In this document: positions 3,188 to 14,610 of the stretch, one piece after another
Numbering within the stretch: position 1 is the stretch's first letter
Layout: the number at the start of each line of letters is the position of its first letter
IMG/VR virus record: IMGVR_UViG_3300025120_000754
Location: 1 to 20,123 of that record
Strand: one strand, 5' to 3'
Length of the DNA stretch: 20,123 nt
Source of the DNA: a virus
Program-made: the position numbers and the translations under genes
Notes under the pieces: generated by a model
What the model saw: the letters and a program-made list of their open reading frames with translations, nothing else
What the model was told of the DNA's origin: nothing
The model's database searches: none

Positions 3188-3463
3188 TCAATTAGCAAAG
3201 GTATCTGAAGAACCTGTAGCAGTATGATCACAAGAAGCCTTATCACCTGCCCTTACAACACCTATACCACTAGCAAACACATTAGTTGAACCTTCTACCA
3301 TAGTTGCGCTGCAATGTGTTTCAGGCTCTGGGCAAGGATCATGTGATGCAACTGAGTCACCTATTAACGACACTTTATCACCATTTACAAACACAGTAGA
3401 AGAACCAGGACCAGTAATTAATCCACCTGCTGTATCTGTTCCTACTCTTGATACGCCTGGCAT
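3188..3463 (-). CDS. PAAR-motif tail spike tip protein
   Basis: 91 aa. PAAR proteins form a small cone that caps the central beta-helical spike and is the first part to touch the host envelope; a bound metal holds the tip. The sequence opens with PGVSRVGTDTAGGLI and has repeated Gly-x-x-V-x-V-NG-D turns. Candidate metal ligands are His41, His50 and Cys78/His80, with extra Cys44 and Cys51. There is no C-terminal toxin or fibre extension, so this is a plain tip. It lies directly after the beta-helical spike gene with a TAATG overlap, which fits assembly as spike plus tip. Confidence 0.9.
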   Translation of the reverse strand: MPGVSRVGTDTAGGLITGPGSSTVFVNGDKVSLIGDSVASHDPCPEPETHCSATMVEGSTNVFASGIGVVRAGDKASCDHTATGSSDTFAN

Positions 3464-5763
3464 TATGCTAGATCCACAAATTGATTATCTTTTTTCTTGT
3501 GATTAAAATATGTAAACATAAGTTTTCTTGGTTGATCTACTTTAAATGATATATGTATCCAAGGTAGTCCAGATCCAGTATCTTTATATTCTAATAATAT
3601 CTTATCAAAATTTATATTGTTTGCTATTTTTTCTGCTATATCAAAATATTCTTTTTTTCTTGTATTTTTAAATTGCATGTCAATAGCTTGACCTTTTAAG
3701 TGATCAGATGTTTTACTTCCTCCAGCTGTAACTTTTCTAAATCCTGAGGTAATAAACATATTAGGAAATAATTCTTTAATTGGTTCACAAATATTTAAAG
3801 CCATAGCCTGTAAGTTAAATACTATATCACCATAAGAAAGTCCAACTTGACCTTGACGAGGTATGTCATGAGGAAAGTAAGCCTTAGAAGATAATTTTTC
3901 AAGTGTAAACTTTGGTGATAATTTCATATTACCTGGTACAAATGTTACAGATTTAAGGCCTATGTCGGGTTGAACAATAGTTGATATAGTAGGTGTAGCA
4001 GTTGATCTTCTTATTTCAACTGGATCAGATCTATTAGTACCTGCAACACCTGATAAGATTTGACTTTTTTCAAACTGTTCTGATTCTTCATTAGATTCAG
4101 TATCTTCTGTTTCATAACCAACATTATCTAAATAATTAGAATATTCTGGATCATCTATTGTTTCTATTATTACACTGTTTCTATCACCTATAGTTCCAAT
4201 ATTAGCATCATTAGCATAAGTTGCTACAGAAGCAATGTTTGGAGGATTGTCTGCTACACTATATGAAGGATTATTCATATTAATAGTTGTTGCTTTTTCA
4301 TTATAAGTTGTAGCTTGTTCATGAATTGAATCTGCTGACGATATCATTTTACTAGTAGCTATCAAACTCATATCTTTAGCTGCTAATAAATTAAAGTTTT
4401 CATCTGAATTAATATGCATATCTTTTAATGTATGCAAAAACATTGAACTGTTACATTTATTATGAATACTATCTTTAGCTGTTATAAATGCATTACCCTC
4501 AGTTTTCATATTAATAAAATTAGATGATTCAATATTAATATTTGCACTATTTAAATTTATTTCTTCAGTGGCAGACAAATTTAAAGTTCCTGCTGCTTCC
4601 ATAGTAACATCATTAAAACATCTTAAATTAGTGTCTCCTTCAACTTCTAAATCTACATTACCAGAACAATATACTTTTAACGAACCTCCAATAGATACTC
4701 TTCCTTCACCCATTACAGATAAGTGATCATTTTTATCTACAAATCTATATTGACTACCTTTAGTTCTTTCTACAATAGAACCTGATTGATCTAATTCAAT
4801 GAATGTTCCATTAGTATGATAGATATGTAATCTCTCAGCACCTGGTGTATCATCCATTTCTATTATATGACCAGATTCTGTTTCTATAACTTTATTAAAT
4901 GGATATCTTGCATTGTATGGATTGAGAGGTTGATCAAAACTTTCATTATTTGGTAATTTACAACCTAATATTATGTCTTCTGTTTTTTCAAAAGTAATTG
5001 TTCCATTTACATCACCAGTGGCAAGTTTATTAGTTTCTGTCCTTGCTGAGTAATCTCGAGTTGGAAATGTAGCTGTAGGACTTACAAAACCAGTATCTCT
5101 TACAAATTGCTTTTTAATGTTTTCATCATTTTGAACATTAAAATTTGCAGCATCTTGTATAGCTGATGTAGCAGCTGCTGTATCAAATTTTTTATTGACA
5201 TCTGCAAATGCTTCCTTAGCACTTAGCTTATCATATATACCCCCTATATTAGGTACTGAAGGTAATTGAGGTATTCTACCAGATAATGCTTCTCCAGAAA
5301 ATAAATTTAATTCATGTTTTATACCTTTGGTTAAACCAGAAGATAAACCTCCACTTAATGCATTTTGTATTGCTGATGTACTAATTTTATTCCTAAGAAT
5401 AGGAGGAAGTTTAGTATTAAATTTTGAAACAACACTAGTAGTAAGTTTATCTGTTAATGCACCTGCAAGGGCACCTGTTATTTTACTATCTAAATTATTA
5501 GTTAAACTAGTTACATCTAAATTACTACTTATTAAATCAACTGGATTAGTTGGTCCAATAAGATTCTTAGGTATGTCTGTCAGTTCTTTATTAGCAGATA
5601 AATCAATATCATTAACTATTCCTGCTGAAAGTTCACTAGCTGTTTCTTCCAAAGCTTCATTCATAAATTTTCTAGCTATAGGAGGTAAACTTGTAAACTC
5701 AGGTCTAGCCTGAGCTTCAGCTACAACTATGTCTTTAAATTGGTTAACTTTAAATGAACTCAT
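3463..5763 (-). CDS. gp5-like central spike: beta-helix with C-terminal M15 peptidase domain
   Basis: 766 aa. Residues 1 to about 240 are Ala/Ser/Leu-rich helical sequence without a recognised domain. Residues about 290-500 have the short in-register repeats of a trimeric beta-helix spike (GHIIEMDDTPGAERLHIYH, then runs such as GSLKVYCSGNVDLEVEGDTN, LNLSATEEINLNSANINIES), as in gp5C and VgrG. Residues about 625-760 form a peptidase M15 (D-Ala-D-Ala carboxypeptidase or L-Ala-D-Glu endopeptidase) domain: SGFR near 673, TSDHLKGQAIDMQF with predicted zinc ligands His688 and Asp695, and WIHISF giving His737. In T4 the gp5 enzyme is a muramidase placed before the helix; here a peptidase lies after it. 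The OB fold is not in this protein but in the gene just upstream, so gp5 functions are split. Overlaps PAAR and the OB gene by one base each. Confidence 0.88.
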   Translation of the reverse strand: MSSFKVNQFKDIVVAEAQARPEFTSLPPIARKFMNEALEETASELSAGIVNDIDLSANKELTDIPKNLIGPTNPVDLISSNLDVTSLTNNLDSKITGALAGALTDKLTTSVVSKFNTKLPPILRNKISTSAIQNALSGGLSSGLTKGIKHELNLFSGEALSGRIPQLPSVPNIGGIYDKLSAKEAFADVNKKFDTAAATSAIQDAANFNVQNDENIKKQFVRDTGFVSPTATFPTRDYSARTETNKLATGDVNGTITFEKTEDIILGCKLPNNESFDQPLNPYNARYPFNKVIETESGHIIEMDDTPGAERLHIYHTNGTFIELDQSGSIVERTKGSQYRFVDKNDHLSVMGEGRVSIGGSLKVYCSGNVDLEVEGDTNLRCFNDVTMEAAGTLNLSATEEINLNSANINIESSNFINMKTEGNAFITAKDSIHNKCNSSMFLHTLKDMHINSDENFNLLAAKDMSLIATSKMISSADSIHEQATTYNEKATTINMNNPSYSVADNPPNIASVATYANDANIGTIGDRNSVIIETIDDPEYSNYLDNVGYETEDTESNEESEQFEKSQILSGVAGTNRSDPVEIRRSTATPTISTIVQPDIGLKSVTFVPGNMKLSPKFTLEKLSSKAYFPHDIPRQGQVGLSYGDIVFNLQAMALNICEPIKELFPNMFITSGFRKVTAGGSKTSDHLKGQAIDMQFKNTRKKEYFDIAEKIANNINFDKILLEYKDTGSGLPWIHISFKVDQPRKLMFTYFNHKKKDNQFVDLA

Positions 5764-10908: not shown

Positions 10909-11464
10909 TATATTAGAACAAATAACTTTACGTGCTGCAGGAAAAGTACAACCACAGAATTGGTATAAAACACAAGTTAGAGAATTGGGTGGAGCAAGTC
11001 CTAATAAACTTTTACAGTCTGGAAAGTTTGCAGCAAGAATTATTCCAGGTAACATGTATCTTTTTAAATATGATCCAAAAGACAAAGATATTCCATTTTA
11101 TGATATGTTTCCGTTGGTTATTCCTTTTTCAAGGACTGAAGGTGGATTTTTAGGTATAAATTTTCATTACTTACCATACATGATGAGAGTAAATATATTA
11201 AAGGAATTTAATAGATTTGCAACAGATAAAAAAATTACAGAGAAAACAAGATTAAGATTATCTTACAGAGTATTAGAAAGTACAAGAGTGTTTAGGTTTG
11301 TTAAACCAGCTATAAGACATTATTTAAAGCAACAATTAAGATCAAGATTGTTAATAATCCCATTTCCAGACTGGGTTGTAGCTTCTCAACTTCCTGTACA
11401 AAGATTTAGAGGTGCTCCTATGGAAACTGTTCTCAAAGAAACTAGAAAGAAGAGCGTAGCATGA
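10901..11464 (+). CDS. Conserved structural-type protein of marine T4-like phages, function unknown
   Basis: 187 aa, strongly basic. The mid-part has a compact beta pattern (IIPGNMYLFKYDP, IPFYDMFPLVIPFSRTEGGFLGINFHYLPYMMR) followed by an Arg/Lys-rich helical part (TRLRLSYRVLE, FRFVKPAIRHYLKQQLRSRLL) and an Ile/Pro segment (IIPFPDWVVAS). I recognise the style from marine T4-like genomes between gp4 and the tube genes, where it is usually unnamed or tentatively a DNA-end protector (gp2-like); I cannot confirm gp2 from this sequence. The high positive charge and gp4 neighbour would suit a DNA-binding head-completion or neck role, which is inference. It overlaps gp4 by 8 bases and gp54 by 4 (ATGA). 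Confidence 0.8.
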   Translation: MANILEQITLRAAGKVQPQNWYKTQVRELGGASPNKLLQSGKFAARIIPGNMYLFKYDPKDKDIPFYDMFPLVIPFSRTEGGFLGINFHYLPYMMRVNILKEFNRFATDKKITEKTRLRLSYRVLESTRVFRFVKPAIRHYLKQQLRSRLLIIPFPDWVVASQLPVQRFRGAPMETVLKETRKKSVA

Positions 11465-12195
11465 CAATAGGTACATTATCAAACTTTAATTTATCAAACT
11501 TTCAAGCTGAAGTTCTAGGTAAAGGACTTGCAAGAGTTAATCGCTTTGAAGTTATAATACCAAGGCCAAAACTTCTTAATCAAAGATCTCCACAAAAAGG
11601 TTTTAATGGAGGTATAATTGGTGGAGAAAGAGTTAGTACTTCAACAATAGCACCACAAAGAATATCACTCTTATGTGAACAAGCAGCATTCCCATTATTT
11701 AACATTAATGTTAAGCCTTATAGAATATATGGTACACCATATCAAAGACCGGTAACTTCGGATTATGGTGGTGATGGTTTACCTATGACATTTCACGTTG
11801 ATAGACAAATGACAGTAAAAAGATTCTTTGAGGATTGGGCAAGATTTATAATTAACAGAGATACATTCAATGTTGCTTATCAAGAACAATATATTGTTGA
11901 TATAGAAATATACCAATTAGATGAATTTAATAGAAGAACATATGGTATAAAAATAATTGAAGCATTTCCAAGAAGTTTAAATCAAATGGAACTTAATAAT
12001 AATGCTCAGAATCAAACACACAGATTAATAGTTTTATTTTCATATAGAAAATGGATGTTTATAAACGATAATCCAAGTAAATCAATACAAGAACCAACAG
12101 TTCAAAATCCTAAAGTTAGAGTGGATGCAGTTGGTGAGAGTATAATTAAAACTACAGAAACAAATATAGGTACAACTACATTCTTTGGACCTTAA
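11461..12195 (+). CDS. 54: Baseplate tail tube initiator, gp54-like
   Basis: 244 aa against 320 in T4. gp54 is a tube-fold protein related to gp19 that caps gp48 and starts tube polymerisation. Features seen: an N-terminal NLSNFQAEVLGKGLARVNRFEV tube-type opening, RISLLCEQAAFPLFNINV, YRIYGTPYQRPVTSDYGGDG with DGLPMTFHVDRQMTVKRFFEDW, and C-terminal YVIDIEIYQ-like and IKIIEAFPRSLNQMELN strands followed by LIVLFSYRKW. The YGG/F-x-x-W/AFP-x-S-x-N pattern is that of tube and tube-initiator proteins. gp19 itself is the alternative, but the place beside gp26 and the tape-measure gene favours gp54. Starts at an ATGA overlap. Confidence 0.78.
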   Translation: MTIGTLSNFNLSNFQAEVLGKGLARVNRFEVIIPRPKLLNQRSPQKGFNGGIIGGERVSTSTIAPQRISLLCEQAAFPLFNINVKPYRIYGTPYQRPVTSDYGGDGLPMTFHVDRQMTVKRFFEDWARFIINRDTFNVAYQEQYIVDIEIYQLDEFNRRTYGIKIIEAFPRSLNQMELNNNAQNQTHRLIVLFSYRKWMFINDNPSKSIQEPTVQNPKVRVDAVGESIIKTTETNIGTTTFFGP

Positions 12196-12210: not shown

Positions 12211-12909
12211 ATGGCATTACCTAAACTTGAAACACCTACATTTGAATTGATATTACCTTCGACAAAAGAGGTTGTTAAATTTAGACCTTTTTTAGTTAAA
12301 GAACATAAAATATTATTACAGCAACAAAATACTGTTGCAAATAATATTGTAAAAACTATTAAAGAATTAATACATGTATGTACATTTGAGAAGTTAGATT
12401 TAGATAAACTACCTAATTTTGATATGGAATATATTTTTTTAATGTTAAGAGCCAAATCTATAGGTGAATTGGTTGATATAACAGTTAAATGTGACTGTAA
12501 TAAGAAATTAAATGCAGTAGTAAACTTAAATAATATAAAAGTCATCAATGATGAAAATTTACAAAATACAAATTTAAAGATAAAAGATAATTTGTTTATT
12601 AAGGTTAGACATCCTGTATTTACTGAAATGATGGATATATATGAGCATGCAGATACTGATAAAGTATTTGAAGTAGTTGGTAAATGTATTGATTCAGTAA
12701 CTATGGATGATAAATTATATGATAATTTTAGTAATAAAGAACTTAATGAATTTATTTTAGGATTAACCAAAAAAGAGTTTGAAATTATAGAACAATTCTT
12801 TTTGGATATGCCTAAAGTTGTTTATGAAGATGAAATTAAATGTAAGGATGAAGAATGTGGTGTTACAAATGTAATAAAATTACAAGGAATTGAACATTTT
12901 TTTATATAA
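12211..12909 (+). CDS. 26: Baseplate hub assembly protein gp26 (zero-frame product)
   Basis: 232 aa against 208 in T4. gp26 is an assembly catalyst of the T4 hub and not a virion part; by position next to the tape measure it also resembles tail assembly chaperones. The opening LPKLETPTFELILPSTKEVV with FRPFLVKEHKILL is the gp26 (T4 baseplate protein) family signature. Cys94/Cys96 (KCDCN) and Cys211/Cys216 (CKDEEC) form a likely zinc ribbon. GGAG eight bases before the ATG fixes the start. The last codons are TTT TTT ATA TAA: a heptamer of T in the right phase for -1 slippage lies two codons before the stop, see the extension feature. Confidence 0.92.
   Translation: MALPKLETPTFELILPSTKEVVKFRPFLVKEHKILLQQQNTVANNIVKTIKELIHVCTFEKLDLDKLPNFDMEYIFLMLRAKSIGELVDITVKCDCNKKLNAVVNLNNIKVINDENLQNTNLKIKDNLFIKVRHPVFTEMMDIYEHADTDKVFEVVGKCIDSVTMDDKLYDNFSNKELNEFILGLTKKEFEIIEQFFLDMPKVVYEDEIKCKDEECGVTNVIKLQGIEHFFI
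12897..12903 (+). promoter_or_regulatory. Slippery heptamer T TTT TTT for -1 ribosomal frameshift
   Basis: Seven T residues split by the gp26 frame exactly as X XXY YYZ (the third base of the His codon, then two Phe codons). Both P- and A-site tRNAs can re-pair after a -1 slip. The in-frame TAA comes one sense codon (ATA) later. An AU-rich stem (TTAGCT at 12927-12932 with AGCTAA at 12955-12960, plus AATTT/AAATT inside) follows but starts 23 nt away, further than usual stimulators. Confidence 0.8.
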
Positions 12910-13106
12910 CTCTTTCTCAGGACGATTTAGCTAATTTTTACCAATTAAATTTTCAGCTAATCCATGAATATAATTATTCATTAACAGAACTGGAAACTAT
13001 GATACCCTGGGAAAGAGAAGTTTATGTTGGATTACTTTTACAACACTTAAAAGAAAAAAAAGAAAGACAGGAAATGATACAACAGAATCAAAAGCATTAT
13101 GGATAA
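12903..13106 (+). CDS. -1 frame extension of gp26 (gp51-like C-terminal part of a frameshift fusion)
   Basis: After a -1 slip at 12897-12903 translation continues as YITLSQDDLANFYQ... for 67 codons to TAA at 13104-13106, giving a fusion of about 298 aa. The extension looks like real protein: amphipathic helices, SLTELETMIPWEREVYVGLL, then a charged KEKKERQ tail. It has no start codon before an ATG deep inside (TELETM) and no ribosome site, so separate initiation could give only a fragment. The helix pattern MIPWEREVYVGLLLQHLK resembles the C-terminal part of phage tail chaperone extensions, and T4 has a second catalyst gene, gp51, beside gp26; homology to gp51 is a guess. It fills what would otherwise be a 189-base gap and overlaps the tape-measure start by 8 bases. 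Confidence 0.82.
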   Translation, partial: YITLSQDDLANFYQLNFQLIHEYNYSLTELETMIPWEREVYVGLLLQHLKEKKERQEMIQQNQKHYG

Positions 13107-14610
13107 ATTTAAAGATTCTCTTAAAAACATGTTGGGCAAAATGGTTCCTAGTAAGGAAACCAGAGGAGCTGTCGTTGATAAATTCAAAGGTGCATTTGCG
13201 GCTAATCCTGAAGTAAAAATATTAGCTAAAATTGAAAAGAAACAAAATCAACAGTTTTTACTTGTACAAACAATACAAGATAGTATTAGAAGGATAGAAG
13301 AAAAAGTAGTAGGTGAAGAAAAAAAATCATTTGCTAAAAAAATATTTGAGTTCTTAAAAAAAGGTTTAAGTGCAGCTCTTGGTTTAGCTGGAATAGTTGC
13401 TGCTATTACTGGGTTTTCTAAAATTCCAGGGAAAATTGTTGATGTATTATCTTCAGTACTATCTAAAATGGGTTTAGGTAAAATAGCAAACATGCTCCTA
13501 GGACCTAAAACTCCACCAACTTTAACTAAACCAACAACAACTGGCCCAGGGGGACTTGCAAGAAAAGTAACAGTTACAAATATAAAACCCATACCAGTTA
13601 TAGAAGCTGGTCTTCCTGGTAGAGATAAGAAAGGTAAAAAAGGTAGAGGTGCTAAAGGACCACAGACTAAAGGACCACAGACTAAAGGACCACAAACTAA
13701 AGTACCAGATACAAAAACTCCACCAAAAGGTACGAAAGTTCCAGATCTTCCTGATGACAAAAAATTCAGTGATAAAAAATTAGACCTTGAAAAAATAGCA
13801 GATAAAAATAAAGCACCTAAAGCACCAAGTAAATTAGCAAAATTTGGTAAAGCTGCATTAAAAGGTGCTAGATTTTTAGGACCTGCTGGAGCTGTTCTTG
13901 GTGCTGGAATGGCTGTCGGATCTGCAGTTCAAGGCTATGGTGATGAAGCTACATCAGAAAACTTAGGCATAAAAGGTAGAGATCCAACAGGTGGTGAGAA
14001 AGCATCATCAGCTGCTGGTTCAGCTATTGAGAGTGCAACACTTGGATTAGTTGATGCCTCAAAAGCAAGTAAAGCAATAGCAAAATTCTTTGGAGCTGGA
14101 CCCGGAGACTTAGAAGGTGTAGATGAAGAATTACATCAATTTATTAAAAAAGATGATATAGAAAGATTTAAAAAAGAAGGTACTTTTGCAAAATATAAGA
14201 AAAGATTATATAAAGCACCTGGTGCTCCTAATCCTCTTCTTGGAGGTATGACAGCTCATCAAGCATATCAAAAGGCTTATGATGTAGAAAAAGCTGATCC
14301 AAAATTACAAGCAGAACAAGAAGAAGAAAGATTAAAAGGTATTGCTTCAGGAGAAGTTGACACAATCAATACAGGAATATCTGATACAGGTGAAGTGCTT
14401 ACTCGTAAAGTTACAGCTGATGATGTTAAAGAAGCTCAGCAAAAATTAGATGAAAAGAAAGGTGGTGGTCAAGGTGGAGGTGTTACTGTTAATAATGTTA
14501 ATAATTCTTCTAATCAAGCTCCACCTCCCCCAGCTGGTGTCAAACCCCAGCCAAGGAAAGGTCCAAGCTCTTTAGAAATGCAGCTTCTAAGAGATGTAGT
14601 ATATCAATAA
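13099..14610 (+). CDS. 29: Tail tape-measure-like protein (gp29 position)
   Basis: 503 aa against 590 for T4 gp29, the extended protein inside the tube that sets tail length. Residues 1-75 are charged and helical (MDKFKDSLKNMLGK, KIEKKQNQQFLLVQTIQDSIRRIEEKV). Residues about 88-135 are hydrophobic, Ala/Gly/Ile-rich (LSAALGLAGIVAAITGF, VLSKMGLGKIANMLLG), as in tape measures that insert into membranes. Residues 187-201 are three GPQTK-type repeats. A second Gly/Ala hydrophobic patch lies at about 255-275. The C-terminus has Gly/Asn and Pro runs, then a conserved-looking helix SSLEMQLLRDVVYQ. The assignment rests on position after gp26/extension, composition and length; sequence similarity to gp29 is not evident. 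Start overlaps the fusion stop. No strong ribosome site, so coupling is likely. Confidence 0.72.
   Translation: MDKFKDSLKNMLGKMVPSKETRGAVVDKFKGAFAANPEVKILAKIEKKQNQQFLLVQTIQDSIRRIEEKVVGEEKKSFAKKIFEFLKKGLSAALGLAGIVAAITGFSKIPGKIVDVLSSVLSKMGLGKIANMLLGPKTPPTLTKPTTTGPGGLARKVTVTNIKPIPVIEAGLPGRDKKGKKGRGAKGPQTKGPQTKGPQTKVPDTKTPPKGTKVPDLPDDKKFSDKKLDLEKIADKNKAPKAPSKLAKFGKAALKGARFLGPAGAVLGAGMAVGSAVQGYGDEATSENLGIKGRDPTGGEKASSAAGSAIESATLGLVDASKASKAIAKFFGAGPGDLEGVDEELHQFIKKDDIERFKKEGTFAKYKKRLYKAPGAPNPLLGGMTAHQAYQKAYDVEKADPKLQAEQEEERLKGIASGEVDTINTGISDTGEVLTRKVTADDVKEAQQKLDEKKGGGQGGGVTVNNVNNSSNQAPPPPAGVKPQPRKGPSSLEMQLLRDVVYQ
13657..13701 (+). repeat. 15-bp tandem repeat, three copies, in tape-measure gene
   Basis: GGACCACAGACTAAA occurs three times head to tail (13657, 13672, 13687), the third with one change (CAAACT). 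Each unit encodes GPQTK and keeps the frame. A degenerate fourth (V-P-D-T-K) follows. Slippage here would change protein length by five residues per unit. Confidence 0.95.

Follow-up and report, generated by a model that had tools for sequence, protein, structure and literature searches.

A predicted -1 frameshift joining gp26 to a gp51-like domain in T4-like phages, and its relation to T4 genes 26 and 51

T4 is the textbook contractile-tail phage, and a 2016 review (Atkins et al.) named it as an exception with regard to tail chaperone frameshifting. The window examined in the present study, the whole 20,123-nt stretch at positions 1 to 20,123 of the IMG/VR virus record IMGVR_UViG_3300025120_000754, raises the question of whether the gp26 gene that it carries on the plus strand ends in a site at which ribosomes shift frame and, if so, what the longer product would be. 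The 3' end of the gp26 ORF (12211..12909, 232 aa) reads GAA CAT TTT TTT ATA TAA, and its T run at 12897-12903 places T TTT TTT in the X XXY YYZ phase of the gp26 frame, exactly as the original prediction had it. The -1 frame, which opens just 13 nt 5' of the gp26 stop, is then open for the 67 codons that were claimed (12903-13103; YITLSQDDLANFYQLNFQLIHEYNYSLTELETMIPWEREVYVGLLLQHLKEKKERQEMIQQNQKHYG) up to a TAA stop at 13104-13106, and no ATG, GTG, or TTG is found in it before codon 33 of the extension, in agreement with the suggestion that an independent gene would lack a usable start here. From its sequence, the second product of the window is predicted to be a -1 fusion of 298 aa (12211..13106) made via this canonical heptamer at the 3' end of gp26, in which ...GIEHFF would be followed directly by YITLSQ...; gp26 itself would be the short, 'G-like' form, the extension (12903..13106, plus strand) the 'T-like' domain, and the fusion the long, 'GT-like' form.

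Conservation of the heptamer and of the -1 frame

The heptamer alone would be no evidence, because the gp26 gene is AT-rich and has an in-phase T TTT TTA elsewhere that is not conserved. This other site lies upstream at 12430-12440 (ATT TTT TTA of EYIFLML) and was used as a negative control, with an in-phase T TTT TTA at the matching motif in just 14 of 157 relatives. Relatives were gathered using a divergent gp26 alignment, the extension, and T4 gp51 as queries, together with annotated isolates, and the heptamer was not a selection criterion. In an initial scan, 75 of 75 gp26 relatives carried T TTT TTC or T TTT TTT immediately 5' of the stop, each with an identifiable extension in the -1 frame. 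Among public loci having gp26 and then the extension, the extension was in the -1 frame in 247 of 247 and T TTT TTN was kept in phase in 245, 11 of which carry the T TTT TTA/G variant; conservation of the heptamer in relatives had been named beforehand as a test of the frameshift. Deduplication of identical contexts left 198 distinct contexts in 178 clusters, and the heptamers among the former were TTTTTTC (143), TTTTTTT (44), TTTTTTA (10), and TTTTTTG (1). At the TTTTTTA/G sites the zero-frame residue becomes Leu, and the slipped reading remains Phe-Phe.

The motif is also commoner here than at comparable sites: Phe-Phe pairs elsewhere in the same gp26 genes are encoded by T TTT TTY in only 11 of 156 cases, and gp26 genes that prefer TTC still carry T TTT TTY at the shift site. 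In ACP17 (GC 0.58-0.59), for instance, TTT is used at 0 of 12 other gp26 Phe codons, all of which are TTC, and despite this preference the junction reads GAT TTT TTC GTA TAA. The residue following the heptamer is highly variable in the zero frame (V, G, stop, E, A, T, and others), and in the fusion reading it is Arg in 123 of 178 clusters, followed by I/L/V.

Purifying selection in the -1 frame, the absence of which was to have spoken against a programmed shift, was evident across relatives: the dN/dS of the extension frame was 0.079 (263 close pairs), compared with 1.2 and 2.5 for the remaining frames, and fell below 1 in 42 of 42 disjoint pairs. That a sequencing error or a decayed gene produced this arrangement, for which there is nothing to be said except that the junction is a homopolymer, can be set aside as vanishingly improbable, and is in fact already refuted by the conservation of the junction, given that the same junction recurs in 245 loci, complete isolate genomes among them, with the -1 frame under purifying selection.

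A second explanation, and the one embodied in the databases, treats the extension as a small gene in its own right (gp51), read by ribosomes that reinitiate after termination or that use a non-standard start. Separate gp51 genes have been deposited for S-PM2, P-HM2, and phiM7, and an ATG occurs near the gp26 stop, in addition to the heptamer, in nt-1, phiM7, and Bhz51. The isolate records, however, give the extension as a free-standing gp51 with inconsistent starts or leave it unannotated, and the annotated starts cut into conserved sequence, at about extension codon 4 in S-PM2 and well inside the extension in P-HM2. ATG, GTG, and TTG are missing from the first 12 extension codons in 111 of 178 clusters and in the window, and an ATG falls within the first six codons in 18 of 178; extension codons 1-9, which precede any usual start in most genomes, are nevertheless under purifying selection when taken alone (pS 0.29, pN 0.08). 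Reinitiation would moreover leave the retention of T TTT TTN in 245 of 247 loci unexplained. In six clusters, Mosig included, the gp26 stop is at offset 31 rather than about 10 while the heptamer and the -1 extension are unchanged, which identifies the site and not the stop as the conserved item and argues for slippage over stop-coupled reinitiation. Together with the observation, described below, that T4 gp51 corresponds to the full fusion and not to the extension alone, these results make a separate gene improbable, and the extension is, on comparative sequence grounds, a conserved -1-frame coding sequence without a start of its own.

Slippage of the RNA polymerase on the T run, in place of ribosomal slippage, could also yield a fusion. 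Bacterial transcription is known to slip on long runs, and the window has a T homopolymer of 7; runs of six are short for RNA polymerase slippage, however, and the run has a length of just 6 in 134 of 178 clusters (9 in one) and stays in the X XXY YYZ phase, so that we regard this origin as less probable still than a separate gene. Ribosomal frameshifting is the reading that we carry forward.

Other routes to expression of the extension do exist, as seen in three phages that lack the heptamer. The two loci without a heptamer among the 247 are both from Ackermannviridae, and in the Ackermannviridae phages Det7 (L090:2750-2960) and T751 (L095:2760-2980) gp26 is followed by a gp51-like extension in the -1 frame, at an ATT TTC ATT TAA junction that has neither T TTT TTN nor a good start. 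The occurrence of the extension as a separate gene in relatives, which had been put forward as grounds for rejecting the frameshift, is not general, with the rare exception of Vibrio phage K469 (L091:2700-2905), in which the extension follows gp26 via a TAATG stop-start overlap with no heptamer and is apparently a separate gene.

Two candidate stimulatory elements were considered. Shine-Dalgarno-like elements 5' of a slippery site are also present in dnaX, and here an AAGGA (12884..12888, plus strand) lies 8 nt 5' of the heptamer; relatives have AAGGA/GAGGG 8-9 nt upstream, with GG at -11/-10 in 98% of clusters and a Shine-Dalgarno-like 4-mer in 149 of 178. A role for this element as a stimulator is suggestive only, being confounded with a conserved Gly codon. 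The region 3' of the gp26 stop (12910..13010, plus strand) has weak RNA structure, and RNA structure was rejected as a general stimulator: the mean z of downstream structure across relatives, -0.9 to -1.2, was only weakly above controls (about -0.5), and strong structure was restricted to a few genomes, S-PM2 and nt-1 among them.

Homology with T4 genes 26 and 51

The identity of the short form is well supported, as the window's gp26 matched PF12322 (T4_baseplate) at E 8.6e-52 (176 bits, with a Pfam gathering cut-off of 24.5) and phrog_150 at E 8e-57, and the marine gp26 profile matched the T4 gp26 family at E 1e-28 in hhalign. The original prediction had described gp26 as the T4 hub-assembly catalyst, which has to be corrected: the 'assembly catalyst' is gp51, and gp26 is described as a hub subunit or chaperone. 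Its conjecture that the extension might stand in for gp51 fared better. At E 1.6e-22 the extension hit the gp51 family phrog_634 ('baseplate hub assembly catalyst'); it also matched residues 202-249 of gp51 in hhalign (E 1e-7) and columns 235-281 of phrog_150, the gp26 PHROG, which identifies it as the gp51 C-terminal domain; a Pfam search with the extension alone returned no real match. The phrog_634 entries and the GenBank cyanophage 'baseplate hub assembly catalyst' genes are thus the extension itself, and differ from the arrangement proposed here in that it is either annotated on its own, with starts that vary from record to record, or omitted. A fusion annotation was found in none of the frameshift-type records examined. 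On the sequence evidence for the frameshift, many deposited genomes carry a mis-annotated gp51 that is free-standing, truncated, or absent.

T4 gp51 (249 aa) is longer than the extension and spans columns 13-280 of the 282 columns of phrog_150, with T4 gp26 covering columns 14-235 and both proteins matching PF12322. The predicted fusion aligned with T4 gp51 over residues 21-285 in BLASTP (E 2.5e-7) and, in hhalign, the virtual fusion matched the T4 gp51 family across positions 20-283 (E 6e-21). T4 gp26 and T4 gp51 were also alignable to one another (hhalign E 5e-17), with the alignment extending to the C-terminus of gp26, which is the shift point; hhalign controls with gp25 and gp27 gave E values of 0.16-0.9. 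By sequence homology, T4 gp51 is therefore the counterpart of the fusion along its length and T4 gp26 that of the short form, with its C-terminus falling at the shift point. The short and long forms are thus encoded in T4 by a pair of paralogues, genes 26 and 51, with no slippery site. In the window, on the other hand, the body of gp51 is gp26 itself and the remaining domain is in the -1 frame, with no independent gene in a single frame; T4 instead has two diverged genes on opposite strands, oriented divergently.

The split-gene group comprises T4, RB43, and the 44RR group. The gp26 Phe-Phe is retained in T4 and its close relatives, where the codons are TTC TTT, and T TTT TTN was present at this Phe-Phe in 0 of 10 split-gene loci. 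A tree resolved T4 gp51 (support 100/99), T4 gp26, and the frameshift type as groups, with the Straboviridae phages nt-1 and Aeromonas 65 falling with the frameshift type. Very long branches of the RB43 and Aeromonas 31 gp26 sequences keep the tree from placing the duplication exactly. In RB43 (L266:2501-3794), gp51-like and gp26-like genes, assigned by profile, stand in tandem on one strand with an 8-nt overlap. Sequence evidence thus points to the frameshift being present in the wider T4 superfamily, including cyanophages and the Straboviridae phages nt-1 and Aeromonas 65, which would make these phages a natural experiment in recoding versus gene duplication. We favour, with reasonable confidence, the broader proposal that the T4 superfamily uses a G/GT-type frameshift and that gene duplication has fixed the pair in T4 as genes 26 and 51, with gp28 perhaps a third, degenerate paralogue. 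Searches of the open-access literature turned up neither a described gp26/gp51 frameshift nor any mention of the two genes as paralogues.

With respect to gp28, T4 gp28 (L087:6349-6882) showed a weak hhalign match to T4 gp26 (E 3.6e-4; best column-shuffled control 0.05), and T4 gp26 matched the gp28 PHROG 1140 at E 9e-4. Judged by these matches, T4 gp28 is possibly a third chaperone paralogue, adjoining the tape measure gene 29.

Predicted fold, neighbouring genes, and proposed role

The AF2 model of gp26 (pLDDT 93.7) was compared with 975 aligned PDB chains, only three of which had a Z of at least 5, the next best chain being at 2.2. All three matched residues 1-89 of the model: YqbN (3KLU; Z 7.2, rmsd 4.2, 85 aligned), Rbstp2171 (3FGX; Z 7.1, rmsd 3.9, 85 aligned), and HK97 gp13 (2OB9; Z 6.7, rmsd 4.0, 83 aligned). 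In a published comparison, exactly these three structures are classed as tail assembly chaperones of phages (PMC9603447). Taken alone, a Z around 7 is middling, and the match is persuasive because the three neighbours are of the same kind and well above the remaining chains; residues 1-89 of gp26 therefore look like a tail assembly chaperone fold of the HK97 gp13 type in the predicted model. A Foldseek search of the PDB with the gp26 model returned no match at E ≤ 0.001, the chaperones being recovered only via the second aligner, and a sequence search of solved structures with the gp26 profile returned no relative. The model of a T4-like gp51 (pLDDT 89, with 59-77 in the C-terminal part) has a similar order of elements, with lower-confidence C-terminal helices for the extension, and chaperones were missing from its structure matches, the rows of which were taken by its other parts.

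Upstream of the gp26 gene is a gene for a tail-tube-family protein (gp54/gp19-like; 11461..12195, plus strand) that matched phrog_3629 at E 6e-30 and phrog_45 at E 3e-27, and downstream is a 503-aa ORF (13099..14610, plus strand). The extension overlaps this ORF by 8 nt, so the stop is placed as predicted; that the ORF is the tape measure gene, which had been taken for granted, is only likely, judging from its position and variability. In relatives the downstream ORF is mostly 424-814 aa where complete, is highly variable, and overlaps the extension or begins within 20 nt of it in 121 of 168 loci, and no homology to T4 gp29 or to other known tape measure proteins was found by sequence.

Taken with T4 gp51 being the counterpart of the whole fusion, the chaperone-like predicted fold lends support to the G/GT-type interpretation, and we consider it highly probable that the gene makes two products by -1 frameshifting after the design of lambda gpG/gpGT, with the slippage, the ratio of the forms, and their action on the tape measure or hub-tube nucleus being inferred. 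Most ribosomes would translate gp26 and terminate just past the heptamer, and a minority would slip back by one base on T TTT TTN and continue in the -1 frame to produce the gp26-gp51 fusion. The short form may coat or stabilise another protein, for which the product of the next ORF, the probable tape measure protein, is the likeliest candidate, and the added helical domain of the long form may bring in a tube or hub component; in T4, RB43, and the 44RR group, two paralogous genes, 26 for the short form and 51 for the long form, would do the same after loss of the slippery site. This would give gp26 and gp51 a concrete and testable role.

The locus shares with lambda gpG/gpGT and the HK97 gp13-type chaperones a short chaperone and a predicted -1 fusion, with the slippery site at the 3' end of the upstream ORF, a location between a tail-tube-type gene and a long ORF that follows, and, in the model, a gp26 fold like that of HK97 gp13 (2OB9). 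In lambda, gpGT is the less abundant long form, and its extra helical domain recruits another tail component. The two systems differ in the heptamer, T TTT TTN here and G GGA AAG in lambda, and in gp26 being longer (232 aa) with a chaperone-like part confined to residues 1-89; the likeness is one of layout and predicted fold. A less likely possibility is that the frameshift is real but that the two proteins work on the baseplate hub (gp27/gp5/gp28), resembling G/GT in layout only and binding neither tape measure nor tube. Genetic work on T4 assigns both gp26 and gp51 to hub assembly, and gp51 is needed for assembly and is absent from the particle (PMC3004832); the downstream ORF, too, is only a probable tape measure. 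Against a role restricted to the hub are the tail assembly chaperones that neighbour gp26 in predicted fold, the tail-tube-family gene upstream and the long variable ORF downstream, and the fact that the T4 tape measure gp29 is itself counted among the hub proteins (PMC3004832).

G/GT had previously been assigned in a T4-like phage, Citrobacter phage Moon (L270:4607-6245), in which a joined CDS over gp27/gp28 is annotated as 'tape measure chaperone, GT-like fusion protein'. This assignment concerns gp27/gp28 and not gp26/gp51, and as gp27 is a known structural hub protein it is probably misplaced. Elsewhere in the window, at 3188-5763, a PAAR-like protein gene adjoins a gp5-like hub gene, the C-terminal part of which resembles an M15-type peptidase by eye.
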